Assembly (NCBI GenBank): GCA_937926445.1
Contig: CALBAK010000107.1
Location: 1-39,431, forward strand
Source of the DNA: an uncultured Alphaproteobacteria bacterium
GTDB lineage: Bacteria; Pseudomonadota; Alphaproteobacteria; Geminicoccales; Geminicoccaceae
DNA length: 39,431 bases
Direction: 5' to 3'
Shown: positions 15,606 to 31,846 of the stretch, piece after piece
Layout: every line of letters begins with the position of its first letter
Position numbering within the stretch: the stretch's first letter is position 1
The notes under the pieces: model-generated
Database searches by the model: none
Seen by the model: the letters and a program-made list of their open reading frames with translations, nothing else
Told to the model about the DNA's origin: nothing
Program-made: the position numbers and the translations under genes

Positions 15606-15695
15606 GCCCGGGCGCCGGACGGCCGGTCTCGCGGAACGGGATCCGGTCGCTCGCCGGCGAGTTCGGGCGTCCGGAGCCGTGTCGGAAAGGGATCG

Positions 15696-15713
15696 TTAAA
15701 CTCCGGCGGTTAA
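15696..15713 (+). promoter_or_regulatory. Paired TTAA boxes upstream of the receptor gene
   Basis: TTAA at 15696-15699 and TTAA at 15710-15713 are separated by 10 bases, inside a direct repeat of TTAAA-(2-3 bases)-CCGGCGG (15696-15724). TTAA is very rare in this GC-rich DNA. Two TTAA half-sites recall CtrA boxes, though the classic spacing is 7, so this is an imperfect match. The ATG of the receptor gene is about 35 bases further on. Confidence 0.35.
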
Positions 15714-15746
15714 AAACCCGGCGGTCAGCTCGGGAGAACGCCAGGC

Positions 15747-18032
15747 ATGTTCGCCAACCTCCGGATCGGCACCCGGCTCGCGCTCGGCAATGCCGTCTTG
15801 ATCGCCCTCGTCGTCGGACTCGCGCTCGTCCAACAGGTCTACGTGACCCAACTCGGCCGGGTCGTGGAGCAACTCGGAACGCAAGGGGAAACCTCTGCCG
15901 GGATCGCTCGCGTCCTGATCGAGTCCTCGATGCTTTCCTACGAAATGGATCGGTTTGTGGAACATCCTGGCGAAGACAAGAGACGGGCGCTCGTGGAGCA
16001 CCTCGAGAAATTAAACGCATTGACCGACGAAGCTCTCGCGAAAGGTGCGACGGGGGCGGAGGCCGCCGACCGGTTGATCCACGAAATCGAGGAGCGTTTC
16101 GAAGCGTTCGCGTCCCTGGTACTCGAGCACAACCGTCTGAAGAATCAGATCCGCGATTCGGGTATCGAACATCGGCGGGCCATGGGACGGCTCGTGGCGT
16201 TGCTCGAAGAGCGTGGTGCCAAGGAGGAAGCCTATTGGGCGTTGCGGGCGTCCGACGCCTTCCTGACGACGCGGGTCCGCGTGGATCGCTTCCTCCACGG
16301 CGACCCGGTCGCCGAGCTCGAGAGCGCCCTGCCGGCTCTCGAGACGACGCGTGCGGCACTGCGGCGGTTGGCATCCGCGGAGCTCTCCGGCGAGGAGGCG
16401 GAGCTTCTCGAGCGCATCCGTTCCGGCGTGGAGGCCTGGGCCGCGACTCTCGGCCGGGCGCGCGAGACGGAGCTCGCGTTGCGCGAGACGACGGCATTCC
16501 ACGAGCGCAGTTTCTCGACCCTCGAAAGCGACCTGCTCAAGGTCCTCGACAAGATCGACGGCGAGCGGCACGGATCGTCGGAGAAGAGCACGGCGGTGAT
16601 CTCCGAGCAGCGGAGAACGACCCTGGCTCTCTCTGCCCTGGCCGTTCTTCTCGCGCTCGCCACGGCGTGGGTGCTCTGGCGCGGAATCGTTCCGCCTCTC
16701 CAGCGCTGTACGTCGACGACCCGACGGCTCGCGGAGGACGATCTCGATTGCACGGTGGCCGACCGGCGCGGTCGCAACGAACTCGCCGAGCTCGCACGGG
16801 CGTTGGAGACCCTTCGGACAAAGCTGCGCGAGGCCCGTCGAACGAGCGCGGAAGCCGAGGCGGCACGAGCCGAGCGGTTGGCCCAGCAGGAGCGGGAGAG
16901 CCGCATCCAGGCCCGCGTCGTGCGGGAACTCGAGACCGGGCTCGATCGACTCGCGGAAGGCGATCTCACGCACAAGATCGAGAGCCCACCGACCGATCCG
17001 TTCCCGGCCGAGTACGAAGCGCTTCGCAAGGCCTACAACGATACGGTGGATCGCCTCGCCGCGACGGTCGCCAAGATCTGGGAACTCGCCGAGTCGGTCC
17101 GCAACGGCGCGGGCGAGATCGCCCAGGCGGCCTCGGATCTCTCCTCGCGAGCCGAGACGCAGGCGGCGACCCTCGAACAGTCGGCAGCCGCACTCAACCA
17201 GCTGACCGAAAGCGTCCGCGCCACCTCCGAGCGGGCGAGTGCCGCCGACAAGGCTACCCAGGCCAACTACGCCGAGGCCAAGGCCGGCGAGGCCGTGGTC
17301 CGCGAAGCGATCGCCGCGATGGGTGCGATCGAGCGGAGCTCGGAGCAGGTGCAGCGGATCATCGGGGCGATCGACGACATCGCCTTCCAAACCAATCTGC
17401 TCGCACTCAACGCGGGGGTCGAAGCGGCGCGGGCGGGCGAGGCGGGCCGCGGCTTCGCGGTCGTCGCCTCGGAAGTGCGGGCGCTCGCCCAGAGAGCGTC
17501 GGATTCGGCCCGCGAGATCCGCACCCTGCTGTCCGACAGCCGCAACCAGGTGGAGAACGGAGCCGCGCTCGTAGCCAAGACCGGCGAGAGTCTCGAGCGG
17601 ATCCTCCAACAGGCGAGCGAGGTCTCGCGCCTCATGGCCGAAATCGCCGCCGCGACCAACGAGCAGTCCGCCGGTCTGACCGAAATCAACGGCGGGGTCG
17701 GACAGCTCGATCGCGTCACGCAAGAGAACGCCGCCGCGGCCGAAGAAGCGCGCGCGGCCGCCTCCGCGCTGAACCAGCAGGCCGACGGGTTGCGCGACCT
17801 GCTCGTGACCTTCCGCACCAAAGCGAACATGCCATCCGTTCCTCGACCGGTCTTCCCGGGCGAGGTCGTCGGAGCCCGGTCGTCGATCCGCGGCGGCGCT
17901 GCCTCGTCGGAAAAGGCCGGGTCTCGCGCGACCGCCGTGGTGACTCCGATCGACACCGCGAGACAGCAGAGCAAACGAAGGTCTCTGCGTGCGGCGAACG
18001 AAACCGCCGGGAGCGTCTGGCAGGAATTCTGA
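15747..18032 (+). CDS. Transmembrane methyl-accepting chemotaxis protein with C-terminal WxxF tether
   Basis: 761 aa inner-membrane chemoreceptor. Transmembrane helix 1 is at about residues 12-30; an all-helical ligand-binding region of about 260 residues (HBM-like length, no family assigned) follows; helix 2 is at about 292-312. Then HAMP (about 313-365) and a second HAMP-like piece (LDRLAEGDLTHKIE near 405). The cytoplasmic signalling domain has the hairpin tip [20 protein letters not shown] near 542. The protein ends in VWQEF, a WxxF pentapeptide of the kind that recruits CheR (and CheB) in family knowledge, agreeing with cheB and cheD directly downstream. ATG 15747 has GGGAGAA upstream. 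The ligand is unknown. Confidence 0.92.
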   Translation: MFANLRIGTRLALGNAVLIALVVGLALVQQVYVTQLGRVVEQLGTQGETSAGIARVLIESSMLSYEMDRFVEHPGEDKRRALVEHLEKLNALTDEALAKGATGAEAADRLIHEIEERFEAFASLVLEHNRLKNQIRDSGIEHRRAMGRLVALLEERGAKEEAYWALRASDAFLTTRVRVDRFLHGDPVAELESALPALETTRAALRRLASAELSGEEAELLERIRSGVEAWAATLGRARETELALRETTAFHERSFSTLESDLLKVLDKIDGERHGSSEKSTAVISEQRRTTLALSALAVLLALATAWVLWRGIVPPLQRCTSTTRRLAEDDLDCTVADRRGRNELAELARALETLRTKLREARRTSAEAEAARAERLAQQERESRIQARVVRELETGLDRLAEGDLTHKIESPPTDPFPAEYEALRKAYNDTVDRLAATVAKIWELAESVRNGAGEIAQAASDLSSRAETQAATLEQSAAALNQLTESVRATSERASAADKATQANYAEAKAGEAVVREAIAAMGAIERSSEQVQRIIGAIDDIAFQTNLLALNAGVEAARAGEAGRGFAVVASEVRALAQRASDSAREIRTLLSDSRNQVENGAALVAKTGESLERILQQASEVSRLMAEIAAATNEQSAGLTEINGGVGQLDRVTQENAAAAEEARAAASALNQQADGLRDLLVTFRTKANMPSVPRPVFPGEVVGARSSIRGGAASSEKAGSRATAVVTPIDTARQQSKRRSLRAANETAGSVWQEF

Positions 18033-18853
18033 AAGGATCGCAAACGGACGGCACTCGCGAGCGAATTCGCATCGCGTCGAGGTGTGGTCGCAGCGCCGGT
18101 CTCGCGGCGAACCGGCGCTGCTTCCGCCTCCGGCGGGAGGCGCGTGCTTCGTCGCGCCCCTCCGCCTTCGGATTCACGACCCGCTTGCGAACCCACCGAA
18201 GGGCGACGTCCCGACTACTCCTCGCAGATGCGACTGCGGAAGCGGCGGCGACGAACCGGCCAGCGGCATCCGGCTCGATCGCGGATCGAACCGCCACGTC
18301 GCTCTCGCTCCGCGAAGCCCAGCCGGTTCTCCCGGTCGAACATCGCACCGCGACCGATCGCCCGCGTCGCCTTCGCGCCCCACCCGGGGTCCGGAACACC
18401 CGCGGCGCTCTTCCGTCGGGGCAGCACGGGTACGAGCGCCGCGGTCGGGGCGCCGGGCACGGGAGCCGTTCCCGTGGGCGCTCGGAAGCGGCGTCTCGGG
18501 CTGCCGAGAGGTGTCGGGCCACGGAGTACCGGCGATCCGCCGCCATCGGACCCGACCTCGGTAGCCGACCGATCTGCCGAAGCACGGGAACGCCTCGCAC
18601 TTTCGTCTCGCACGCAACCGATCCGCTCGTCGGGTGCAGGACAAGGACGAACGGTCGCATTCCCCCGAAGACCGCTGTCCGTACCCGGACCGAAAAAGGT
18701 CTCGCGTGCGCGGGTCGCGATGCCGGCCTCGGTCATTGCTGCCCGGGCCGGTGTGGCGCAATTCCGGCCGTGGCCAACGTCGACGATTTTTTAACGGCCC
18801 GACGCGAAGGTTGCCCCGTCAGACTGCGACCCGAGAGCGAACAGTCGAAAACC
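18033..18853. other. 821-base intergenic region before cheB
   Basis: No frame here shows codon usage or composition like its neighbours; open frames are Arg/Pro/Ser-rich and overlap in all directions, as expected by chance at this G+C. A TTTTTTAACG element at 18787-18796 contains a TTAA half-site about 60 bases before the chosen cheB start and may belong to its promoter. Nothing else was recognised. Confidence 0.5.
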
Positions 18854-19873
18854 GTGTTCACTGCTCTGCACAACGGGGCGAGCCGCAGCCCGAGCGCACG
18901 CCTCGTCCTAGCCGACCCCCATCTCGGCCGGCGGGCTCGGATCCGGCTGGCGGCCGGGGCCGGAGCGATCCGCGAAGTCGCCGACCTGTCGCAGGCTTTC
19001 AGTGCCGTCGAAGAACTCGAACCGGACGCGATCGCGATCGCCGCCGAGCTCACCGGCGACTCCGGCATCGCGATGTTCGCCGATCTCGTCGAAATGGTAA
19101 GGGCACGTGCACTGGTGTACGGGGACGTCGCGCTCTATCGTGTTCCCACCGGACTCGCGCGCCGTCTTCCCTTCGTGCCCTTCGAAGACACGGCCTCCCC
19201 GCACGAACTCCTCGCCTACCTGTACGGGCTCAAGCGGCCGCCGTGGAGGGCCGTGACACCGGCCCCGAGGGGGCCCGAACTCTTGCTCATCGGGGCGTCG
19301 ACCGGGGGTATCGCGGCGATCGAGACGATCGTCTCGGCGTTTCCGTCCGACTGCCCACCGACGCTCGTCGTGCAGCACATCCGCCCCGGCTTCATCGAGA
19401 GCACGATCGCACGTCTCGAACGGACCTGCCGACCCCGCATCCTCCTCGCCTCCGACGGCCAGCCGCTGTCCCGTGGCTGCGTCTACGTCGCTGCGGACCC
19501 CGAGCGACATCTGGTCCTCGCCGGATTCGGGAAACCGCGCTGCAAGCTGGTCGCCCAGCCACCACGCAACGGCCACCGCCCGTCGGTCGACAGCCTGTTC
19601 CATTCCGCGACACCGTACGCTTCGGTGGTCGCGGCGGCGCTGCTCACCGGTATGGGAGCCGACGGGGCCGCCGGGCTCAAGGCTCTGCGCGACGCCGGCG
19701 CCTTCACGATCGCTCAGGATCGCGCGACGAGCGTGGTCTGGGGCATGCCGCGCGTCGCGACCGAGATCGGCGCCGCGCTCGCCGTTCTGCCCGTCGATCG
19801 AATCGCCGAAGCCCTGCTCGCCGGTCGCGCCGACCAAGCCGCCGCGACCGCGCTCCGACGGAAGGGACGGTAG
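18854..19873 (+). CDS. cheB: CheB-type receptor methylesterase with degenerate receiver domain
   Basis: 339 aa. The C-terminal methylesterase domain is complete: Ser149 in LLLIGASTGGIAAIE, His175 in LVVQHIRPGF and Asp270 in LLTGMGADGAAG give the CheB catalytic triad. It removes methyl groups from receptor glutamates (and may deamidate glutamines) in adaptation. The N-terminal part (about 15-125) aligns with a receiver domain (ARLVLADPHLGRR start), but at the phospho-acceptor position PDAIAIAAEL has Ala63 where PDVVLLDxxMP has Asp, so phosphorylation by CheA is unlikely. GTG 18854 is chosen because the TTAA-bearing candidate promoter lies just upstream; an in-frame GTG at about 18773 would put that element inside the gene. 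cheD starts 2 bases after the stop. Confidence 0.9.
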   Translation: MFTALHNGASRSPSARLVLADPHLGRRARIRLAAGAGAIREVADLSQAFSAVEELEPDAIAIAAELTGDSGIAMFADLVEMVRARALVYGDVALYRVPTGLARRLPFVPFEDTASPHELLAYLYGLKRPPWRAVTPAPRGPELLLIGASTGGIAAIETIVSAFPSDCPPTLVVQHIRPGFIESTIARLERTCRPRILLASDGQPLSRGCVYVAADPERHLVLAGFGKPRCKLVAQPPRNGHRPSVDSLFHSATPYASVVAAALLTGMGADGAAGLKALRDAGAFTIAQDRATSVVWGMPRVATEIGAALAVLPVDRIAEALLAGRADQAAATALRRKGR

Positions 19874-19875
19874 CG

Positions 19876-20412
19876 ATGGCCGAACCGCGGCGTGTCGTCC
19901 ACGTCGTCCAGGGGGAGCACGCGGTCTCGAGCGACCCCGACGTGGCGCTGGCGACCGTTCTCGGATCCTGCGTGGCGGCCTGCTTGTTCGATCCGGTTCG
20001 CCGGGTCGGCGGAATGAACCACTTTCTCTTGCCGGAAGGTAAAGATCCCGGGGACGTTCGCCACGCCTACGCCGCGATGGAACGATTGGTCAACAACCTT
20101 CTGAAGAGCGGTGCGACCCGAAACGAACTTCGAGCCAAAATCTTCGGCGGTGCACGCATCGTACCGGGTCTTCCGGATATCGGCGGCCGGAACGGGGAAG
20201 CGGCATTGCGTTTTCTCGAGAACGAAGGAATTCCCTGCTTGGTATCGCACCTCGGCGGGAATCGGGCGCGCCGAATCCGTTTCTGGCCCACCACCGGAAA
20301 GGTCGAGATGCTGCTGCTCGACGGGCTTGAACCGCCGCACGAGGTGCCGCGGCGAGCCGCTCCGGCGAGCGGCAGCATCGAGCTGTTCTGTGTACCGCGG
20401 TCGAGTGGCTGA
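19876..20412 (+). CDS. cheD: Chemoreceptor glutamine deamidase CheD
   Basis: 178 aa. Deamidates glutamines on receptors to glutamates and thereby tunes their methylation sites. Catalytic residues are visible: Cys32 in TVLGSCVAACLFD, His49 in GGMNHFLLP, and the nearby Thr27. The conserved KIFGGARIV (about 92-100), NGEAALRFLENEGIP and GGNRARRIRF segments follow. ATG 19876 lies 2 bases after the cheB stop, so cheB and cheD are one transcription unit, probably dedicated to the receptor encoded upstream and perhaps to the globin receptor too. The C-terminal tail beyond about residue 160 is variable in the family. Confidence 0.95.
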   Translation: MAEPRRVVHVVQGEHAVSSDPDVALATVLGSCVAACLFDPVRRVGGMNHFLLPEGKDPGDVRHAYAAMERLVNNLLKSGATRNELRAKIFGGARIVPGLPDIGGRNGEAALRFLENEGIPCLVSHLGGNRARRIRFWPTTGKVEMLLLDGLEPPHEVPRRAAPASGSIELFCVPRSSG

Positions 20413-20438
20413 GCGCAACCTCCGGTAGCGCCGCGGCC

Positions 20439-20461
20439 CGAGCCGTCGTTGCGCCGGCTCG
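20439..20461 (+). terminator. Hairpin 27 bases after cheD
   Basis: CGAGCCG, a 9-base loop and CGGCTCG form a perfect 7-bp GC-rich stem shortly after the cheD stop. There is no T tract, so an intrinsic terminator is only a possibility; the position supports it. Confidence 0.25.
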
Positions 20462-20906
20462 TACGACCCCTTCGACGTCGTTCGAGCGCCGTGGCGATCG
20501 TCCGAGGCTCGCCGAGGCTTCGAACGGAACATCGCCGCGGGCCCCGATCGGCACCCGGGAGCCGATGCGCAAGGGATCGCGCCGGGGCACCGCGACGACC
20601 GCTCGAACGGACGGCGACATCTTTCTCCCCGGTCGGGGTCTGCGGTCCGACTGTCCCGACCGTCGATCCGCGGCGTGACACGAGGCTCTGCGCGGACCGT
20701 CGAGCCGTTCCCGTACCGAGGCCGGTCCTGAATGCGGCGGCAGCTCACGACCCGCCCCTTCGTCGAGCGGAGCGCCCGGAACTCGGAGTGTGTTCGGCAG
20801 CCGATAGGGCACCGACGTCCTCGGACCCGGCGCCGCGGCGAAGGCGTCCACCCCCTTCGTTTTCCTCGTGTCGCCTGCGTCGCGACGCGCACGCGCCGGC
20901 GTTGCG

Positions 20907-20921
20907 CTAACCAATCCTTAA
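20907..20921 (+). promoter_or_regulatory. CtrA-like box (CTAA-N7-TTAA) upstream of the cheA operon
   Basis: CTAACCAATCCTTAA matches the CtrA consensus TTAA-N7-TTAA at 7 of 8 defined positions with the exact spacing of 7. It lies about 140 bases before the STAS gene that opens the cheA operon. CtrA control of motility and chemotaxis is established in several Rhodospirillales and Rhodobacterales. Binding here is inferred. Confidence 0.5.
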
Positions 20922-21061
20922 AGACTGTTGGGCATAGAAGGCGCATCCGAGAGGCGTCGTCCGCTCCGGGACGCCGCGGAGCCCGACATCCAACCGGCGT
21001 CGCAGGGTGCGCCGACACCGAGACAGGGCTCACTCTGCCGACGCCGATGGGAGTTTCGAGG

Positions 21062-21457
21062 ATGCAGCAAGGACGCCCCCGTCGCCAGCCCGGTACGAAA
21101 CGCGGCTCGGCGGTTTCCGGATCGACCGACACGGGATCGACCAATCTCGTGAAGCTGCCCCCCCGTCTCGACGCACCGGCCGTTTCGATGCTTCGAGAGC
21201 AATTGCTCGGCCGGCGCGGTAGCGATCTCGTCGTCGACGCGGCCGAGGTCGAAGCAGTGAGCGCTCTCGCACTCGAGGTTCTGGTCGCGGCGGCCCGACA
21301 ATGGTCGCAAGACGGTCGACGCATCGAACTCCGTAACGCGTCTGTAGCCTTCGAGCGTGCTTGCCGGCATTTGGGGCTGGTCCCCTCGACCCCCTGGAGA
21401 GCCGAACCCGTCGAGCTTCCGCGATTGACGGCTGATCGGGAGGAGGAATGCGCGTAA
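21062..21457 (+). CDS. STAS-domain protein of the chemotaxis operon
   Basis: 131 aa. A basic, Ser/Gly-rich N-terminal tail of about 35 residues is followed by a STAS fold: LVKLPPRLDAPAVSMLREQL (about 36-55), LVVDAAEVEAVSALALEVLV (about 61-80) and ERACRHLGL near the end. In anti-anti-sigma factors the phosphorylatable Ser lies in a DSSG-like turn; here that turn reads VSALALE, so only one Ser is near that position and regulation may differ. STAS proteins of this kind occur in alphaproteobacterial che operons just before cheY/cheA; their function is unsettled. ATG 21062 has GGAG 8 bases upstream. Its TAA stop overlaps the cheY1 start at 21457. Confidence 0.8.
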   Translation: MQQGRPRRQPGTKRGSAVSGSTDTGSTNLVKLPPRLDAPAVSMLREQLLGRRGSDLVVDAAEVEAVSALALEVLVAAARQWSQDGRRIELRNASVAFERACRHLGLVPSTPWRAEPVELPRLTADREEECA

Positions 21458-21825
21458 TGAGACCTCGCGTATTGGCGGTCGACGATTCGGCTACGATGCG
21501 TCGGTTGATCGAGGCGACATTGTCGCCCCGAGGCTTCGAGGTCTTCCTCGCCGAGGACGGTATCGAGGGCTTGGCTCGTTTGCCCGAAGTCGATCCGCAC
21601 GTCGTCATCACCGATATCAACATGCCGCGGCTCGACGGCTTCGGCGTGATCGAGGGTGTCCGCCGAAGTCCGACCCACGCAGGCATTCCTGTCCTCGTTC
21701 TCACCACGGAAAGCGGTGCCGATCTCAAGGCGCGTGCTCGGGAGGCGGGAGCTACGGGTTGGCTCGTGAAGCCTTTCGAAGACGATCGCCTCGTGAACGT
21801 GCTCCGCCGGGTGCTCTCGATCTGA
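21457..21825 (+). CDS. cheY: CheY-type response regulator (first of two)
   Basis: 122 aa single receiver domain. Phosphorylation by CheA is supported by a complete site: the acidic pair in LAVDDSAT (residues 9-10), phospho-acceptor Asp53 in ITDINMPRLDG, Thr/Ser in LTTESG and Lys in LVKPFED. Two starts are possible: ATG 21448 (AGGAGG almost touching it) and ATG 21457, which overlaps the STAS stop as TAATG and has AGGAGGA 9 bases upstream; the latter is chosen. Either this or cheY2 is the flagellar-motor regulator, the other possibly a phosphate sink (family knowledge of alphaproteobacteria with two CheY). cheA begins 12 bases downstream. Confidence 0.93.
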   Translation: MRPRVLAVDDSATMRRLIEATLSPRGFEVFLAEDGIEGLARLPEVDPHVVITDINMPRLDGFGVIEGVRRSPTHAGIPVLVLTTESGADLKARAREAGATGWLVKPFEDDRLVNVLRRVLSI

Positions 21826-21837
21826 CAGGAGCCGAAA

Positions 21838-24081
21838 ATGGCCGCGATCGACGAATTGCGGATGACGTTTTTTCAAGAGTGCGAGGATCTCCTCGAGCAA
21901 CTCGCCGAAGGGCTCCGCGTGTTGCGTGCGGAGAACGGTTCGCCCGACGTCGAGACATTGCATTCGGTATTCCGTGCGGTTCATTCTATCAAAGGAGGAG
22001 CCGGAGCATTCGGTCTGAAAGAACTCGTAGCGTTCGCCCATGTTTTCGAAACTGTCCTCGATCATCTTCGTTCGGGGAAGATCGTTCTGAGCGAAACGCT
22101 TCTCGCGCTCCTGTTGCGCGCCGGTGATTTTCTGAACGATCTCGTCGGATGTGCGCGCGACGGGGTCCCTTGCGACGCCGAACGGATGAATCTGCTCTTG
22201 GGAGATCTGGACGAAGTGGCCGAGAAGGTCGGCCGCACTGCGGAGAAAGAGGCCGAGATGCCGGAATTCGTTCCGGTAACCCTCGACCTCTCCGCGATCC
22301 CGCTGGGCGAAGGCGACCGCGACGACGGAGCGAACGAAAGCGCACTCCCCCCTGACGACGCGACCGGCGTGAGCTCGGACCCGACCCGTTTCGAGATCGA
22401 TTTCGCTCCCCTCGGGACGATGTACGGTACCGGCAACGAACCGGCGCCCCTCGTCCGTTCCCTGCGTCGGCTCGGCGCGGTGACCGTGACCGCGGACCTC
22501 TCGGCGGTTCGGCCTCTCGAAACCTTCGATCCGACGGAGCCACAACTGGTGTGGCGGCTGGTTCTGGAGACCGAAGCCCGAAGAGACGAGATCGAAGCGG
22601 TGTTCGAATTCGTCGAGGATCTCGCGCGGATCGACATACGTGCGACCGTCGAGCCGACGAGACGAACGAGCGGGCGTAGCGTCCCCCCATCGTCCGGATG
22701 CGGCGCGGACACAACGGCGTCGTCTCGGGATGCTGCCCTTCTTCGGCCCTCGCCGAAGTCGCGATCGAGCGTCGGCGATCTATCGTCCGGGGCGAACCCG
22801 AAGATCGTCGGATCGACGGCGACGACCGTGCCGACCCCCGGATCGGCCGCGACGAGCTCGGCGGTCGGCGCCTCGCCGTCGACCATTCGCGTGAACCTCG
22901 ATCGAGTGGATCGGCTGATCAATCTCGTCGGCGAGCTCGTCATCATGGAGGCTCGCCTCTCCCAGGTGATCGCCAAGGCCGGCCTCGCCGCCGACAGCGA
23001 CGTCGCGAGCGGCCTCGAAGGTATCAAGCAGCTCGCCTCCGAGGTCCAAGAAAGCGTGATGGCGATACGAGCCCAGCCGCTCAAGCCCGTCTTTCAGCGC
23101 ATGCACCGGATCGTGCGCGAGGCGGCGGAGGCTACCGGCAAGATCGTGACCCTCGAGACGGTGGGGGAGAGTACGGAGGTCGACAAGACCGTCATCGAAC
23201 GACTGGTCGATCCGCTGACCCACATGATCCGCAACGCCGTCGATCACGGGATCGAGCAGCCCGACATCCGCGTCGCCGCAGGTAAGCCGCGCGAAGGCAA
23301 AATCACTTTGTCGGCCGCCCATCGTTCGGGACGCGTCGTGATCGAGGTCGCCGACGATGGAGGCGGTATCGATCGGGCGAAGGTGAAGGCGGCTGCCGAG
23401 CGGAAGGGCCTCGTCCAGCCGGGCACGGCGATGACTCCGAACGAGATCGACAACCTTCTCTTCCTCCCGGGGTTCTCCTCGAAGGAGGAGGTCTCCGCAC
23501 TCTCGGGACGCGGGGTCGGTCTGGACGTGGTACGCCGGGAAATCCAGGGTCTCGGAGGCAGGGTCGCGATCGATTCGATTCCCGGGCGCGGTACGACCTT
23601 CATCATCACTTTGCCTCTCACCCTCGCCGTTCTCCAAGGCATGCTCGTGTCGATCCGCGGCGAAACGCTGGTTCTTCCGCTTTCTGCAGTCGTCGAGACT
23701 CTGCACGCGACCAATGCCACCCGCTACTCGGTCGGACGGCGAGCACGGCTGGTCGCGAACCGCGGCGAACTTTTGCCGATCATCGACTTGGCGGAGGTGT
23801 TCGGTCTTTCCGGCCCGCTTTGCGACGACGGACGCGGTGTTCTGATCGTCGTCGAGTGCGACGGCGGTCGGCGCGCGGCACTCGAAGTCGACCATATCGA
23901 AGACCAACGCCAAGTCGTAATCAAGAGTATCGAGGAGAATTATGGACATGTTTTCGGAATATCGGCCGCTACGATCCTCGGGAACGGACGCATTGCCCTC
24001 ATAATCGATCCGGACGAGATCATCTCCAGTGCCACTGCAGGGATCCGGTATCCCGCTCTGGCGGAGGCTGTCTGCGCATGA
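21838..24081 (+). CDS. cheA: Chemotaxis histidine kinase CheA
   Basis: 747 aa. Domains in order: P1 Hpt (about 1-105) with phosphorylated His49 in [16 protein letters not shown]; a P2-like regulator-docking domain (about 184-270); a Pro/Ser-rich linker; P3 dimerisation (from about 348, [17 protein letters not shown]); P4 ATPase with N box [12 protein letters not shown] (about 461-472), G1 VADDGGGID and G2 [12 protein letters not shown]5 CheW-like regulatory domain (about 595-740). All kinase motifs are intact, so the protein should phosphorylate CheY1 and CheY2. AGGAG precedes ATG 21838. The stop overlaps cheW by 4 bases (ATGA). Third codon positions contain more A/T than in the metabolic genes to the left. 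Confidence 0.97.
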
Positions 24082-24569
24082 CGCCAACGAGTACAGCGAA
24101 CCAGCTCGGTCGAAAAGAAGTCGTGGCTTTCCGGCTCGGCGATCAGGACTTCTGCATCGATATCGATCACGTGCGGGAGATCCGCGGTTGGACACCCGCG
24201 ACGAAGCTCCCGCACGCTCCCAGTTACGTGACCGGCGTGATCAACCTGCGAGGATCGGTGGTCGCTGTCGTCGACCTCGCCGATCGCCTCGGGCTCGGCG
24301 CCACCGTGCCGTCCGACCGACACGTGATCATCATCGTGACCCTGGGTCGGCAAACCGTCGGGTTACTCGCGGACTTCGTTTCCGACATTCTGACCATTGG
24401 CGAAGAGTCCACGAAAGCTGTACCGGAACTCGGCGCCGAGCCGACAAGAGATTTCATCGTGAACATCATCACGCTCGAAGACGGGCGGATGCTGCGCAAG
24501 ATCGACCTCTCGCGGGTCCTTCCCAACTTGCGGTCGTCCGGGCCGACCGATGTGGCGGCGGCGGCATGA
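24078..24569 (+). CDS. cheW: Chemotaxis coupling protein CheW
   Basis: 163 aa. Links receptors to CheA in the signalling array. Typical marks: [20 protein letters not shown] (about 15-34), [20 protein letters not shown] (about 48-67), [20 protein letters not shown] (about 84-103) and a C-terminal [15 protein letters not shown] 24078 overlaps the cheA stop, and the cheW stop overlaps the cheR start, both as ATGA, so translation of the block is coupled. Confidence 0.96.
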
Positions 24570-25552
24570 CCGCGACCTCGTTCGAGCATCAATTCGGCCG
24601 AGAACAACCGAACGCTGCCACGAGGCTCACCGTTCTCGGACCGAGCCCTCGGCCTGTCTCGCCCTACGAAGCCGCCTCGCGCCTGACCGACGACGTTTTC
24701 GCTCGCCTCGCCGGTATCGTCCATCGCGAAACGGGAATCGTACTGCCGGCTTCCAAGCGCAACATGGTAGTGTCGCGATTGAGCCGCCGTCTACGCGCTC
24801 TCGGTCTGAACGACTTCGCAGAATATTGTCGGCTTTTGGAGAGTGTGGAAGGCAAATCCGAACGAAAGGCGCTCGTATCCGCCATAACGACGAATGTCAC
24901 GAGCTTCTTTCGCGAGCCCCATCATTTCGTGACGTTGTCAAACGTCGTTCCGGATCTCGCCAAAAAAGCTCGGTTCGGTGGAAGGGTTCGTATCTGGTCC
25001 GCTGCGTGTGCTACGGGCCAAGAAGCATACTCTATTGCCGTGCAGATTCTCGAACGATGGCCGGACGCGATCCACTTCGATGTCAAGATTCTGGCGACCG
25101 ATATCGATCCCGAGGCGATCGAGACCGCTCGGCAGGGAATTTACGATGACAGTCTCGTCTCGGACGCGCCGCGATCTCTCCGCCGCCACTTGGTCAGAGG
25201 TCCTGTCCCGAACACCGTGGCGATCGGCGATCTGCCGCGGAAGCTCGTTCGCTTCGAAGAGTTGAATCTTCTCGGTCCATGGCCTTTTCGAGGACATTTC
25301 GATGTCATTTTTTGTAGAAATGTCGTGATATACTTCGACGCGACGACGCGGTCGCATCTCTGGGAACGTCTGTCGAACCGCCTCGTTCCTGGAGGATGGC
25401 TCTTCGTGGGTCACTCCGAAACGATCGATCGAAGCACACGTATCGGTCTGGTGCCAGCGGGCGTTACGCAATATCGGCGACGGGTCGAGCGCCAAGAGCA
25501 CCCTTTCGGACCGGCATCCGACGATGTCCTCGACATGGAGCCACCGAACTGA
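24566..25552 (+). CDS. cheR: Chemotaxis receptor methyltransferase CheR
   Basis: 328 aa, slightly long for CheR because of an N-terminal tail of about 35 residues. Uses S-adenosylmethionine to methylate receptor glutamates. Visible: the N-terminal helical domain with [36 protein letters not shown] (about 112-129), the SAM site [15 protein letters not shown] (about 143-157), [13 protein letters not shown], and [14 protein letters not shown] (about 249-262). The SAM loop reads CATGQE rather than the usual CSTGEE. The receptor gene at 15747 carries the WxxF tail that CheR can bind. It overlaps cheW by 4 bases. A 60-base sample inside the gene is about 55% G+C, far below its metabolic neighbours. 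Confidence 0.95.
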
Positions 25553-25565
25553 AGGAGTAATGGAA

Positions 25566-25955
25566 ATGGCACTCAAGAACTCGCTTCATGTAATGGTTGT
25601 CGACGACATGGCCGTTAGCCGCGGCTTGATCACGCAAGCACTGGAAGAAATCGGGATCCACAATGTACAATACGAACGTGACGGCGCCTCGGCGTTGAGG
25701 CGCTTGGCTGCCAATCCCGTGCATCTGGTTATCGCGGATTACAATATGCCGGGCATGGACGGACTTACTCTTCTTCAAGGATTGCGGGCCAACCGATCGA
25801 CCCAACGTATAGGTTTCATTCTCGTCACCGGCAGGCCGGATCGCGACATCCTTGCGCGCGGACAAAAGCTCGGGATGAACAACTACCTCGCCAAGCCTTT
25901 TTCGGTTCAGGCGATGCGGACCTGCATCGAGAAGGTGGTGGGGCCGCTCGGATGA
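25566..25955 (+). CDS. cheY: CheY-type response regulator (second)
   Basis: 129 aa receiver with a complete phosphorylation site: VVDDMAVSR (Asp13/14), Asp58 in VIADYNMPGMDG, Thr in ILVTGRPD and Lys in LAKPFSV. AAGGAG precedes two in-frame ATGs (25560 and 25566); the second has the better spacing of 8 and is chosen. It differs clearly from the receiver encoded at 21457, so this is not a recent duplication. In two-CheY systems one protein binds the motor and the other drains phosphate; the sequence does not say which. Its stop overlaps the next gene as ATGA. Confidence 0.93.
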   Translation: MALKNSLHVMVVDDMAVSRGLITQALEEIGIHNVQYERDGASALRRLAANPVHLVIADYNMPGMDGLTLLQGLRANRSTQRIGFILVTGRPDRDILARGQKLGMNNYLAKPFSVQAMRTCIEKVVGPLG

Positions 25956-26611
25956 CACAGTGGACATCGTCGAACGGCGGCGGGCCGAGCTCGCACACGA
26001 TAGTGGCCACGGGCATGGTCGGAAAGGCTGCGGCGGCGGTGACGCTTCCGGCCTCCGCGCTCTCGGTGCTCGCTGCCGGCGGTTCTCGCAGCGAGCCGAC
26101 GAAAGAAGAAACAACGGCGCGACGCGAGGATGGCGCCGAGCGAATTCCGCTCGGTACGAACGTCGATGGATCGGTCTCGCCAGAGACGTCCATCGCGGGC
26201 CTTTTACCTCGCGATCACGACTGCCTCTGGGACGAGGTTGCCTGTGCCCACGGATCGGACGAGCCGATAGCCGAAAGCCTTCCGGCACATCGCCTACTGA
26301 GAGCCTGCGCTGCAGAGGCCCGGCGCATCCTGGCCAAGGTGTCGGCGCTCGACTCGACCGTGGCCGAAGCGCTGTCGAACGCCGCGCGTTCCGGAGCCGC
26401 CCCATCCCACACGTCGCTCCTCACTGCATCGCTACAGGGTCTCGACCTGTTGTGTCAGGAAATAGACGGTTTGGGGCGGATCCTCGTACTACTCGCCGAC
26501 AAAGCCAAGTGTGATGGAACCGTTTCCGGGGTCAATTTCACCGCCGCGGTGAAGCTCGGTGCCCAGCGGCGAAGACTGCTCGTGGAGGGTCCGCTCGCTA
26601 CCGATCGTTGA
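25952..26611 (+). CDS. Last gene of the che operon: candidate CheZ/CheT-like phosphatase
   Basis: 219 aa. No family is recognised end to end. Residues about 1-105 are low-complexity and probably disordered. Residues 112-148 and 153-186 are predicted amphipathic helices that could form a hairpin. The second contains LTASLQGLDLLCQEIDGLGR (158-177), with Asp165-x3-Gln169. In CheZ the catalytic residues are Asp-x3-Gln in a helix of the same layout (QDFQDLTGQVI), and the CheT protein of Sinorhizobium che operons is thought to be related. The gene overlaps cheY2 by 4 bases, so the protein is made with the likely substrate. Assigning CheY-P phosphatase activity is inference from this motif, the helix layout and position. 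Confidence 0.6.
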   Translation: MTQWTSSNGGGPSSHTIVATGMVGKAAAAVTLPASALSVLAAGGSRSEPTKEETTARREDGAERIPLGTNVDGSVSPETSIAGLLPRDHDCLWDEVACAHGSDEPIAESLPAHRLLRACAAEARRILAKVSALDSTVAEALSNAARSGAAPSHTSLLTASLQGLDLLCQEIDGLGRILVLLADKAKCDGTVSGVNFTAAVKLGAQRRRLLVEGPLATDR

Positions 26612-29600
26612 GTCGGATCGCGGTCGGGAAGGTCTTCGCAGACCCTATCCGGATGCCCGGCCCGACAATGCCGAACCGTCCTTCGGAGCGCACGGACGGG
26701 GCCGTTCGCACTTCGGGGGATTCCTGGTGATGGACGTTTCGGAAATCCGCGAGGCGAACGACGCGGAGGAGGAACGAAAAAAGGTCGTCATCGTTGCGAA
26801 GAGCCCGATCCTCCGATGTCGTGCGTCGTCTCGGCCGCACGCACTCTCCGACGAGATCCCGAGCGACCGACACGGTCCGTCGGCGATCACCGAGCGGCTC
26901 CAACGGCACGAGCCACCACGAGATCCGACACGCGAACGGATCCCGTCCGAGGCACGTAGAAAAAGCGCGCGTTTTTGTTCGTGACCTCGGTACCCGAGCG
27001 CGGTCGACGATCGCGCCATCCGCTTCGCCCCACGGTAGCAAGCCGCCGGATTTCTCCGTGTATTCCTCCAAAAACAGAAGAGGCCGAAGTCCGGAAGATC
27101 CGGCTCGGCGAACCGCGCCGTCGTATCTGTTCCACATCGCCACTCGAGTTGCACCGGCTGCGGATCCACGTCTGTGCGCCGCTTTCGATGCCACTGCCGA
27201 GGCGGCTCGGGAAATTCCGAGCCCGGGTCGGCTTCGAGCAAAAGAGAGCATTCGGGCAAAACTGCTCTGCTCGCGACGAGGATTCCACTATTCTCGCGCG
27301 ATCTCCGGCCGAGCTTCACGCTGCGCCGCAACCGGGCCGGGACAATTGGCGACGAGACCGGCTCTCTCGGGAAAGAACGCCGAGCCACCGAACCGCGTCC
27401 AGCTACGGCGGGGAGAGCGAAGCACTTTTCGTACCTCTCGAAGACCCCGTTACCGGGCTCCCCCGAAAGTCAGGACCGCGTTCTTCCGGCTCGAGATGTG
27501 GGAGATTCGCTGGACGACTCCACCGCAGGAGAGTCCTTGGCACCGAGGTCTGTAGAGCGTGTTCGGTCGATCCACAGGTTGCGCAAGGTCCCGGCCACAG
27601 CCGTAGAACGATAGGTTCGGGTCGATGTGCACCGGCTGAAGATACCCCGCTTCCACTGCGGCCGCGGCCGAGGGCCACCGAGGTACCACACGCTCGCGAA
27701 GAAACTGTTCCTTGTCGAGCGACCCTTCAGATGTCGTCAGCACGGGACGAGGGCGTTCGAGAAGATTCCAAGGCCGGAGACGCGGTCGGGACGCCCAGTT
27801 CCCGAGTTGCTCCTCCTGCTCGTTCCGCAGTCTCTCTCGCTCGACGCGCGGTCGGGCGAGTGCCGTAGGGTCGCGTATCGGGTCGAGCCGGTTCCGGGCT
27901 TTCGGAACTTCCTTGGTCGCATCGGCGGGAGTTGGCATAGTGTCCACGGTGCCGCCGTACGGTGGCCGCGAGGCCCGTTCACGTCGCGGGTCGCAAGAAA
28001 CAACTCCCCCGCGCTCCGGCGCCTCCGCGAGCCGAACGGAGCGAGGACGACCGCTCCGAGGTGTGCGCCGACACTGTCCACAACTAGCGGAACGCGTAGC
28101 GTCGTAAGATTTCTCGCCTCGTGTCCGGTGGGGCCATGGCCGGAGCGCTTCGCGAACGCGCCCGACGGCGGAGGTGGTCTGCTGCGTTGCTGGCGCAACC
28201 GGCTCTCCCGCTTCGGGCGACTGGCTCGGCGCCCGGTCGGAGAACACTCTTCGGCTGCAACGACGGGACTCACCGACGCCTCTGGCCGGAGACCGGAAGG
28301 GCGCACCACTGGGCCACGGCTATGCCCGGGGTTGTGGTCGGAGCCGGGCTGGACGTTCCAGCCGACCTCGCGGCTCTCCCGGGAACGGAACGCGGCCGAG
28401 GTGGCGCGAAACGCATCGGGTCGGCCGGCGGGAGGTTCCTCGTGCGGGCATTGGCGCCCCGGTGCTCGGAGCCACGATCTCGTGCTCCGTGCCCGGTGAA
28501 CAAAAGGTCGGCCGAGGGCAGCGGACCTCGGTGTCGAGGTCAGGAAGCGTGACCGTCCTGCCGGACCGATGCCCAGGCTTTCGCCGGTGTCAGCAAAGGT
28601 AGGTGTGGCGTGGGTCTCGGTATCCGGGTCACCGGTGCGGGGCCGGCTCGGCCGTCCATGGTTGTTCCGTGAAGGCCACGCTGCAGCCGGCTGCCTGGCA
28701 CGCGCCGATGAGCGGACGGGCCGAGCTCGCAACCGCCGACAGGTCGGGGACGACTGGGTGCAGCGCCGGAGGGGAGGTCGAGCGGGGTTCGCCGACAATG
28801 AGCCTTCGGTTCGGGTCGACCTCGGGCCCGTCGCCGGGGGAGCCCCGGTTGGCGTGGCCGGCTCGGTGCCTCCGACGGCGGGCGAACGCGAATACGGGCA
28901 CCGTTTCGAGCGAGTCCCGAAGAGTTTTCGTCGCCGCGCAACGCCCCGCCGTCCGGTCTCGTAGATCCGCGAGTCACGGACGGCGTCGAGGCCCCGGCTT
29001 CGGGCTCGTCCTCTGCAGATCACGGCCCCGCTCGCGAAATGCCAGCCGATCCCACCCGGAGGACGCCCGTACGAAGGCGCGGGCGACGTCGAACCACCGG
29101 ATCGGGTACGCCCGGATCGCGGAGCCGCACCCGGATCGATCGGTATCCCGCCACCGAGGAGTGAACGGTCGCGACCCGATTGCGTCTTCCGGCGCGCCCG
29201 GCGAGCGCATTCCGGTCTTCCGAATCGGCCACGGGAACATTGCCGATTGCCGCCAGAGGAGTTCGCCGGCATCGAATGGATCGAAAGATCGTTCGCTGAA
29301 CGTGCTGCGTCCCGTATCTCGACAGGGGCCTCGGCTAGACCCGACGGCGCGTTCGATCTGCCGATCGCGGTCCCTCGATGCGCTGTCGCGGGAAGGTGAC
29401 CCGACCCGCTGCCGCGGTCACCGATCGATCGCGCCCACGACTCTCGATCGGCACGGGCGAAAAGGGCTCGCGCACTCTCGCGATCGATTTATTCTCGGTA
29501 GCCCGCGCAAGGCAGGCGAGAACGGGGTCGTGGCCTCCTCCCAAACCTCCCCTGCACTCCTTCGGACGGGCTCCGTCGAGCCTCGCTCCAGAAAAATAGG

Positions 29601-30041
29601 TCGTTTTCCCCGGTACCCGCCACCGACCGGGCCGACTCGCCGCGAGTGAGCCGAGGGGAGACGGAGCCGAACGGGAGCGCGTCGGCCGGCGGCCCGCGAG
29701 AACGAGGGCTTCCTCGGGAACGCACTCCGCCCATCCCGAGTCCGGACAGGGCGTGCCGAACGCGCGCGACGAGCCGCATTCGAACCTTTCTCCGCATCAC
29801 CCGCGGGATCACGACCACCGGGAAGGCGTTCGAACACGCTCACCTCGGTCGCGTGGCCGCCCACGGCAACTGCGCCCCGCGCTGCCACCTCGCTCGTTCT
29901 ACGGCCCACCGGCGACCCGGACGGGTGACAGCCCCGACCAATCGAGACACGAGTGCAGCCGGCGAGCCCGAATCCGGCCGTCGCCATCGGGTGCCGCCGC
30001 AGCCGTCCGCTACGTATGGACCACGGACCCGCGGTCGCGGC
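26612..30041. other. 3.4-kb gene-poor region between the che operon and the globin receptor
   Basis: The longest stretch without a supported gene. Open frames on both strands are short, Arg/Ser/Pro-rich, mutually overlapping and show no recognisable product; G+C is high but codon-position bias is weak. No tRNA, rRNA, insertion sequence, CRISPR array or long repeat was seen by eye. It may be decayed coding DNA, or hold untranslated RNAs that cannot be recognised without comparison. One weak ORF within it is listed separately. Confidence 0.5.
27450..27938 (-). CDS. Possible hypothetical protein inside the gene-poor region
   Basis: A 162-codon frame starting MPTPADATKEVPKARN that reads slightly more protein-like than its surroundings (acidic and charged first half, then VEAGYLQPVHIDPNLSFYG near residues 98-116). 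No ribosome-binding site is evident and codon usage is only mediocre, with many CGA, AGA and CCT codons. No family recognised. Listed because it is the best candidate in 3.4 kb; it may be a remnant or chance. Confidence 0.2.
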   Translation of the reverse strand: MPTPADATKEVPKARNRLDPIRDPTALARPRVERERLRNEQEEQLGNWASRPRLRPWNLLERPRPVLTTSEGSLDKEQFLRERVVPRWPSAAAAVEAGYLQPVHIDPNLSFYGCGRDLAQPVDRPNTLYRPRCQGLSCGGVVQRISHISSRKNAVLTFGGAR

Positions 30042-31550
30042 TCAGCCAACCGCGCGCAGCCGCGCCGGTGCCTGAGCCGGTCCGGTCGTGGCTCGCTTAC
30101 GGGAGCCGTCGTCGAATCTTTCCACGAGCTCGATGAGCGTCTTCGAGGTCGTGGCGAGCGTGCTAGCGGCCGCCGTCGCCTGTTCGGCCATCGCGGCGTT
30201 CTGCTGTGTCACCTGATCCAGATGACCGACGGCGTCGCTGATCTCGGCGATCGCCGTCGCCTGCTCCCGCATGGCTTTGGCCATCTCGCCGACGACGCGG
30301 TTCACCTCGCTCACGAATTCGGCGATCCGGTTGAAGGCCTCCTCGGTCGCGTCCACGAGCCGCACTCCTTCGCCGACGTGCGCGCCACTCCGGTCGATCA
30401 GATCCCGGATCGTGCGCGCCGACTCCGCAGAACGCTGCGCCAGCTGGCGTACCTCGGTCGCCACCACAGCAAAGCCGCGCCCGGCCTCGCCCGCTCGCGC
30501 CGCCTCGACGCCCGCGTTCAAAGCCAGCAAGTTGGTCTGGAAAGCCAACTCGTCGATCACCGCGAGGATCTGACCGACCTCGTTCGACGAGGCGGAGATC
30601 TGGCTCATCGCTTTCTTGCTGTCGCGTACGACGCCGCCACCCACGTCGGCTTCGGCACGGGCCTCCAGCACCTTCCGACTGGCCACCTGGGCACGCTCCG
30701 CCGCCTCGGTGACGTTCCGTTTGAGTTGCTCGAGAGAAGCGGAGGTCTGTTCGAGGCTCGCCGCCTGTTGTTCCGTGCGGCCCGCCAGATCGTGCGAGGC
30801 GGCAGCGATCTCCGCCGCGCTCCGATCCAGCGATTCGGCGGCTTCCCGAACGGCGGCGATCGTCTCGCGGATCTCGGCGACGGTCTCGTTGAAGCCCGTA
30901 ACCGCGCTCAGCTCCGCGTCGATCGTGACGGTGAGGTCGCCCTCGCGCAGACGCGACAGACCGGCAGACAGGGTCTCCGCCTTCTGCTTCGCTGCCGCTT
31001 GCTCCTCGGCGAGCTTGCTCGAGAGGCGATCGATATAGACGGTCAGCGCGATGTCCATGTCGATCAGGGTAGCACGCACCAGCGTTCCGATCTCGAGCGA
31101 GAGCTCGCGCGCCGAACGCTTTCCACCGGCGAGGACGCCCAACCGACGCGAGAGGCGAGCCGCGATCAACCGCTGGAGAATACCAGTGAGGATGTGCGCG
31201 TAACCGGCGATGTACCAGCGCGGCTCGAGCCCGATCCGTGCATGGACTTCACCCACCGTCTGCACCGACCGGACCCAGCCGGAGTCGAATTCGGCCGTCA
31301 CGATCCGCCGCCAGTGATCGAGCTGCCGCTGCTTCGCCCGCGCCATGCTCTGGTCGTCCGGAAACAGGCGGCGAATCTCCGGAGTCGAACGAACCCGCGC
31401 GTAGAAATCGGCGAGGACGGGATCGAGGGCCTCCAAAACCGTCGGCGCGAGCGCCCGGAGCCGTGCCCGCTCCTCGTTTCGCAGACCGATGAAATCCAGA
31501 CGAGCGGCGATATCGGCATCGTACAGGACGGACGGCTGGCTCGCGCTCAT
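30042..31550 (-). CDS. Globin-coupled methyl-accepting chemotaxis protein (soluble oxygen/aerotaxis receptor)
   Basis: 502 aa with no transmembrane segment, so cytoplasmic. Residues about 10-165 form a protoglobin-type sensor domain; the proximal heme His is His103 in [19 protein letters not shown] helical linker with a HAMP-like [14 protein letters not shown] (near 228) leads to the signalling domain with the hairpin tip [20 protein letters not shown], followed by [18 protein letters not shown]. This is the HemAT architecture: heme binding of O2 alters CheA activity. There is no C-terminal WxxF tether, unlike the receptor at 15747. ATG 31550 is preceded on its strand by GGAAGAGGAAC, a strong ribosome-binding site; an open extension to 31634 lacks this. 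katG lies upstream on the same strand, separated by a likely terminator. Confidence 0.93.
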
Positions 31551-31654
31551 GGAAGTTCCTCTTCCGGCAAGAAAGCCCTTCCGGGGCGTTCCACTCCGTG
31601 CACGGGCCTCACCCGCGACGGCTGGCGTCGGCACGCGAGGTTACGCGGCGGGAT

Positions 31655-31669
31655 TGAACGAACGGTTAA
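31655..31669 (-). promoter_or_regulatory. CtrA-like box (TTAA-N7-TTCA) upstream of the globin receptor gene
   Basis: On the reverse strand TTAACCGTTCGTTCA matches TTAA-N7-TTAA at 7 of 8 defined bases with exact spacing. It lies about 105 bases before the receptor start. Its first half TTAACC resembles the box before the cheA operon (CTAACC). Binding is inferred. Confidence 0.45.
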
Positions 31670-31818
31670 CAACGCCCCCTCCTCGCACGGTCGAGCGAAC
31701 GGCGTCTCTCGAACAGGGTCGGGCGTGCCCGCGCCGCCGTCCGGCCGCCCGGCGTCGGCACCAACTCTCCGGGCGAGGTTCGGCCGGAGGACCGGGCGCA
31801 TCGTCCCGAAAAGGGCGA

Positions 31819-31846
31819 ACCCCGCCGCACCTCGGCGCGGCGGGGT
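31819..31846 (-). terminator. Likely terminator of katG
   Basis: ACCCCGCCGC / GCGGCGGGGT is a perfect 10-bp stem with an 8-base loop, 26 bases past the katG stop. On the reverse strand a short T run (CCCTTTT) follows a few bases later. The best terminator-like hairpin in the window. Confidence 0.6.

Follow-up and report, generated by a model that had tools for sequence, protein, structure and literature searches.

A putative CheT-family protein, probably the off-switch of the pathway, is encoded by the unannotated last gene of an alphaproteobacterial chemotaxis operon

How the chemotactic signal is ended in bacteria that lack CheZ is a standing question for the Alphaproteobacteria. For rhizobia, the main answer given in PMC8429497 is a second CheY that serves as a phosphate sink. 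The stretch of 39,431 nucleotides analyzed here (the window) contains a che operon with two cheY genes and an unannotated last gene, called X in the following. X extends from 25952 to 26611 on the forward strand and encodes a protein of 219 amino acids. Judged from its sequence, X belongs to the CheT family, and it is probably the off-switch of the pathway, because the residues that are invariant in this family are the Asp and the Gln used by CheZ-type enzymes.

All genes of the operon are located on the same strand, in the order MCP-cheB-cheD-STAS(cheS)-cheY1-cheA-cheW-cheR-cheY2-X. The gene for the methyl-accepting chemotaxis protein (15747 to 18032, Pfam; protein end VWQEF) is followed by a cheB-like gene with a methylesterase domain (18794 to 19873, with a putative start) and by cheD (19879 to 20412, start approximate), the product of which has SIELF near the C-terminus, followed by CVPRSSG. 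Next are the gene of a STAS-domain protein in the cheS position (21149 to 21457 from the domain on, Pfam; ORF listed from 20732), cheY1 (21448 to 21825, Pfam), cheA (21838 to 24081, Pfam; its product nests among Rhodobacterales CheA), cheW (24078 to 24569) and cheR (24566 to 25552), the latter two identified by Pfam and with approximate starts. The gene directly upstream of X is cheY2 (25560 to 25955, 131 aa with the start as read here; ORF listed from 25524), and among the matches listed its product reaches 73% identity with a CheY2 of Rhodobacterales. The STAS gene has the rhizobial cheS position, and therefore the cluster resembles the Sinorhizobium meliloti type, which is described in PMC12654446 and PMC8429497 as having an extra cheY, cheS, cheD and cheT. 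In contrast to that type, cheB and cheD are moved upstream in the window, and X is found where cheT would end the operon. The Pfam receiver domain was not matched in the cheB-like gene, and the stretch before the methylesterase domain looks like a degenerate receiver; for these reasons CheB may escape the control of CheA.

The initial annotation had described X as an ORF of 219 aa that is coupled to cheY2 by ATGA and contains Asp165-x3-Gln169, and this was confirmed by the translation and by the overlap of the ATG of X with the TGA of cheY2 (25953-25955). The GC3 values of the two halves of X are 0.73 and 0.69, and those of the neighboring genes are 0.63-0.78. Asp165 and Gln169 are part of the peptide LQGLDLLCQEIDGL, which comprises residues 161-174. 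Residues 161-169 (LQGLDLLCQ, 26432 to 26458, forward strand) include the two invariant residues and the near-invariant Gln162. X had no match in NCBIfam, no match to the Pfam families of CheC, CheX and FliY, and nothing beyond noise in Pfam as a whole; the only sub-threshold match, Mis12 (E 0.32), was rejected as the identity of X. When such proteins are shuffled, 41% of the copies contain D...Q, and thus the motif alone is weak evidence and its conservation decides. The longer pattern Q..D...Q is present in 2.9% of shuffled copies.

The conservation was analyzed at loci that were found by scanning genome contigs with a CheY2 profile. The best 80 of at least 554 confirmed relatives were taken, which represent 80 distinct loci, mostly from Rhodobacteraceae. 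An ORF with Q..D...Q follows cheY2 in 77 of these best 80 loci, a number obtained with a choice of ORFs that favored those with the motif (D...Q was required somewhere), and at one further locus (L067) the ORF has D...Q only. The unannotated gene after cheY2 is thus placed in 78 of the 80 clusters of this best set, with Asp165 and Gln169 as the two residues named. At L053 and L057 cheB follows cheY2, and the family member sits elsewhere in the cluster, where it was detected by profile with 73.4 and 75.1 bits, respectively (LQNADLLRQ and MQDLDLLRQ). When the ORFs were chosen by a rule that takes no account of the motif, 76 of the 80 loci yielded an ORF, and Q..D...Q is present in 72 of these 76, versus 3.0% in shuffles. 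This rule missed L053 and L057 (CheB after cheY2), L067 (D...Q only), L054 and L055, for which the wrong frame was chosen and the right frame has the motif, and L076, L096 and L112, which have no ORF of 75 aa. L076 seems to be frame-shifted.

An alignment of 73 rows (A3) comprises the window, 70 of the 79 chosen ORFs, and G052 and G189; the nine ORFs left out are those of L057 (wrong ORF), L076, and the near-duplicates L093, L106, L107, L108, L110, L120 and L123. The mean column identity of A3 is 15%, and Asp165 and Gln169 are its sole invariant columns, an invariance that is a little favored because the rows were required to hold D...Q somewhere. The start Met, Q162 and L202 reach 90%, and after weighting to 48.9 effective sequences the values are 1.00 for D165 and Q169 and 0.98 for Q162. 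A second alignment of 13 rows, with sequences from Sinorhizobium, Shinella, Sphingobium, Ruegeria, Rhodobacter, Roseibacterium, the window and other genomes, has Q162, D165, Q169 and one Leu as invariant columns. The conservation of Asp165 and Gln169 among relatives, which had been named beforehand as a point at which the first reading could fail, was therefore seen in both alignments.

Relatives of X were hardly detected with single sequences. A plain protein search of 60 genomes gave two poor matches, in G003, and the same search in 385 genomes of the class gave a single true relative (G189, E 2.1e-4, reciprocal match), which is encoded directly after cheD. A profile of 4 rows found three members and eight other matches at E 0.014-0.084. 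With A3, matches at E<=0.05 were found in 27 of the 385 class genomes, and both strands were inspected at each of these loci. Members that are linked to che genes and have Q..D...Q were present at nine of them (G000, which is the genome of the window, G052, G069, G183, G189, G272, G280, G358 and G383). The other 18 loci are not linked to che genes, and six of these hold Q..D...Q in ORFs of 167-593 aa, i.e., long unrelated ORFs can also contain the pattern by chance. A PDB sequence search with A3 matched coiled coils, among them keratins (best E 1.4e-5), and these were rejected because of the shared coiled-coil composition. The Pfam matches of single members (H-kinase_dim, BLOC1 and others, among 25 of the 74 families listed) were weak and scattered. 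As a side observation, G081 contains an open frame of 593 residues (L143:901-2679, forward strand) with LQAGDLTRQRLEH, a helix-like D-x3-Q stretch, near CheB- and MCP-like sequence; it is perhaps an unrelated phosphatase-like protein or a chance occurrence.

The relation to a named family was analyzed with a profile from which the window was left out (A5). It is built from 49 relatives, the source loci of which are from L053-L132, and contains no Sinorhizobium or Shinella sequence. In the genome of the window X was the first match of the 49-row profile (E 1.8e-16; next match 0.28), and at the window locus it was on top with 57.6 bits. In Sinorhizobium sp. M103 and Shinella sp. PSBB067 the order is MCP-STAS-cheY1-cheA-cheW-cheR-cheB-cheY2-cheD, followed by a gene with LQGIDLAVQ, and this gene was the top match of its locus with the 49-row profile (48.1 bits in M103 and 55.8 bits in Shinella). 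The position after cheY2-cheD is the place of the published CheT of S. meliloti, the comparison being made via the M103 and Shinella genes. Further members follow cheB-cheY2-cheD in G069 (20.5 bits), G383 (60.5 bits) and Sphingobium sp. V4 (21.7 bits); in all five of these clusters CheB lies between cheR and cheY2. Because the window-free profile finds both X and the gene in the Sinorhizobium cheT position, X is classified, on sequence grounds, as a divergent CheT-family protein, and the link to CheT suggested initially was borne out by the profile search and the gene position. The kinship of X with the Sinorhizobium protein rests on the profile; the pairwise BLASTP match with the M103 protein is weak (20 bits, E 0.012, 18 residues).

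The CheT family was published in 2024 (Agbekudzi et al. 2024, cited in PMC12654446). According to PMC12654446, CheT of S. meliloti contains DXXXQ, its AlphaFold model is like E. coli CheZ (citing Agbekudzi et al. 2024), it enhances the dephosphorylation of only one of two CheY proteins, and it forms a complex with CheR. X shares DXXXQ, with D165-x3-Q169 invariant in 73 rows, and like CheT of S. meliloti and Agrobacterium fabrum (Atu0522) it ends a che operon with cheS, two cheY and cheD. In contrast to the rhizobial gene, which follows cheD, X follows cheY2, and with 219 aa it is longer than the M103 protein (124 aa with the start taken here), from which it also differs by a probably disordered N-terminal half and by the absence of the C-terminal ...DFEAF. 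The same order as in the window, STAS-cheY1-cheA-cheW-cheR-cheY2-X, is present in Ruegeria sp. TM1040 (WP_011536822.1) and Phaeobacter piscinae (WP_096873369.1), and the proteins fit the profile with 93.2 and 71.9 bits, respectively. They have 109 and 114 aa and are without the long N-terminal extension of X. In TM1040 the MCP gene, cheB and cheD are adjoining but divergent, whereas in the window they are on the same strand. In public records the genes after cheY2 of Ruegeria and Phaeobacter are a "hypothetical protein", and no paper on the roseobacter gene after cheY2 was found in the literature searched. CheT is named in rhizobia, Agrobacterium and Caulobacter in PMC12654446, PMC8429497 and PMC7750401 and in literature searches, and Rhodobacter sphaeroides appears in PMC12654446, in a loose enumeration of bacteria that have CheD, CheS and CheT. 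The reach of CheT is thus extended from rhizobia to roseobacters and Rhodobacter; as the literature credits CheT with its role in S. meliloti, the principle is not new, and the addition lies in the wider distribution.

A helical hairpin, which was another point named beforehand, was predicted for residues 112-184 of X (26285 to 26503, forward strand) by AlphaFold2 with 73 sequences. The helices comprise residues 112-146 and 151-184, the mean pLDDT of 10-residue blocks is 85-95, and Asp165 and Gln169 are both in helix 2. The whole model has a mean pLDDT of 69.7 and a pTM of 0.54. The same hairpin was predicted for the Rhodobacter capsulatus relative of 129 aa (helices 19-46 and 55-84, mean pLDDT 84.8), so that for both proteins the confidence in the hairpin is high. 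The columns 161, 164, 167, 171, 174, 177 and 181 are hydrophobic, and Q162, D165 and Q169 form an adjacent polar stripe. Such a stripe beside the packed face would suit a residue pair that has to enter the active site of a partner. Foldseek matches of both models in the PDB were ROP and WXG100/Esx proteins, none below E 0.8, and these were rejected as generic hairpins. No CheZ was among the matches listed, i.e., 50 of 129 and 50 of 79 for the two models.

The initial annotation had called X CheZ-style. The D-x3-Q pair on the second helix of a hairpin, which was seen in the alignment and the AlphaFold2 model, is shared with CheZ, as is the presumed role as a CheY-P phosphatase, and the catalytic pattern thus stood. 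Descent from CheZ did not: PF04344 has no match in X, it has 0 matches in the genome of the window, it is likewise missing in the eight further genomes that have a member linked to che genes, and of the 74 Pfam families matched by the 73 relatives, the 25 listed do not include CheZ. A profile-profile comparison of A3 with 12 alphaproteobacterial CheZ (A4) by hhalign, a check of the kind that had been proposed for such a kinship, gave a probability of 1.1%, with the CheZ motif outside the aligned part. The 12 CheZ carry FQDxxGQ. As stated in PMC7750401, AXXFQ precedes DXXXQ in CheZ; it is absent from X (LQGLDLLCQ), and the pattern of the family is LQxxDxxxQ. The C-terminal CheY-binding helix of CheZ was also not seen in X. 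That X is a true CheZ which has diverged beyond detection would agree with the common D-x3-Q pattern and hairpin, and with the similarity of the S. meliloti CheT model to E. coli CheZ, but the missing Pfam match, the hhalign result and the absence of AXXFQ from the family make this improbable, and on sequence grounds it is disfavored. X was therefore filed under CheT, with CheZ-like action as the best mechanism suggested by the sequence.

CheZ was also surveyed in 28 genomes chosen by hand, to which the nine genomes with a che-linked member (all without CheZ) belong. It was present in 13 of them, and six had neither CheZ nor a che-linked match to A3. G010 has CheZ as well as a weak member (19.7 bits), and thus the replacement of CheZ by CheT is a tendency and not a rule. 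A weak member was detected by profile in G009, which is among the six genomes. In this genome, which belongs to the family of the window, a weak CheT-like protein (L036:10649-11173, reverse strand; 21.8 bits) with LQNEDRLQQ and the end GDVDLF is encoded upstream of cheY1.

In CheZ, the Gln positions the attacking water and the Asp contacts the active site of CheY. We regard it as probable, based on sequence and model, that X is a divergent CheT-family member that acts like CheZ on phosphorylated CheY. CheA would phosphorylate CheY1 and CheY2, and the hairpin of X would probably dimerize into a four-helix bundle in which Asp165, Gln169 and also Gln162 point from the same side of a helix. X would use this surface to dock on a phosphorylated CheY encoded in the operon, where Gln169 would have the part of the CheZ Gln, placing the water for the attack, and Asp165 that of the CheZ Asp at the active site of CheY. 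CheY-P would thereby be dephosphorylated by the putative phosphatase X, and the signal would end. By analogy, X may serve only one of the two CheY proteins; because the S. meliloti CheT serves one CheY only, X may act on the sink CheY and not on the motor-binding CheY.

The complex of S. meliloti CheT with CheR (PMC12654446) points to another role, in which X would bind CheR, CheY or CheA, or serve as an adaptor for one of them, and the Q-x2-D-x3-Q stripe would be a docking surface without catalysis. The simple hairpin fold and the small number of conserved columns in the family would also fit this role. However, the motif has the spacing of the CheZ catalytic pair, S. meliloti CheT was described as enhancing the dephosphorylation of one CheY in the same source, and invariance of D and Q at a mean identity of 15% would be more typical of catalysis than of docking. 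An adaptor without catalysis is thus unlikely, and a CheZ-like action of X is preferred.

The operon is part of an island of about 16.2 kb (15624 to 31820) between aroC and katG, which is missing between these two genes in both congeners that were compared. AroC and KatG are 94% and 90% identical to those of the congener G005, and therefore the contig is the host's own. In G005 and G004 aroC and katG are adjacent, and the positions that correspond to 15623 and 31821 of the window are about 30 bases apart in G005, so that about 16.2 kb have been inserted. The CheA of the window forms a clade with Roseibacterium and other Rhodobacterales (support 100/98), and G007 and G009 of the same family are outside. 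Five congeners had no match to the window CheA at E<=1e-30, and all five carry FliM and flagellin. The island also contains a gene for a globin-coupled (protoglobin) MCP, a HemAT-like oxygen sensor (30042 to 31634, reverse strand), suggesting aerotaxis. The island thus holds a complete Rhodobacterales-like che system plus the globin-coupled MCP, in a flagellated genus.

X and its relatives differ at both termini. The relatives have 95-143 aa, with one of 180 aa and one truncated at 78. X has about 105 extra N-terminal residues, which are absent from the relatives and are probably disordered (residues 1-104, 25952 to 26263, forward strand). The block-mean pLDDT of residues 1-100 is very low (41-53), in line with the long disordered N-terminal half that had been proposed; the GC3 of 0.73 shows that the extension is coding-like. 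At the other terminus, 43 of 72 relatives end in F or W, often with [DE][VI]x[LW]F. The strict form of this tail is present in 24 of the 72, compared with 0.2% in shuffles. A similar ending (slightly wider pattern) was found in 40 of the 54 CheD detected in 86 loci, and with the wider pattern in 0 of 32-86 each of CheR, CheA, CheW, CheY1, CheY2 and MCP. The CheD and CheT-like tail peptide possibly serves one common docking partner. X is without the [DE][VI]xLF tail, and likewise its four nearest relatives (L054, L055, L056 and L058).

The missing tail, the long low-complexity N-terminus and the location on an island absent from two congeners could indicate that X is decaying or non-functional after horizontal transfer. 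This is very improbable, because the frame is intact and the invariant residues are kept, the GC3 is like that of the neighboring genes, the ATGA coupling is retained, X is the best leave-one-out match of its genome, and the nearest four relatives also lack an LF/WF tail.

A joint reading is offered tentatively, with less than even confidence. A D-x3-Q family that evolves very fast and can be taken as CheT in a wide sense would be the general CheY-P terminator of two-CheY systems in Rhodobacterales, rhizobia and sphingomonads, and it would have been overlooked as "hypothetical protein" because hardly more than Gln-x2-Asp-x3-Gln is kept. CheT and CheD would both dock on a common partner by the C-terminal peptide [DE][VI]x[LW]F, X would have swapped its tail for the disordered N-terminal arm, and the pathway would have been transferred together with its terminator, on a single 16-kb island, to a lineage that has flagella but no CheA.

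The N-terminal arm of X would perhaps be a docking or localizing arm that replaces the absent C-terminal tail. The 180-aa relative from Roseicyclus (L061:7428-7967) has an acidic-Trp stretch, DLWEDELW, before the hairpin, and residues 86-103 of X contain CLWDEV. A moved docking motif is possible for this acidic-Trp stretch, of which there are two cases only.
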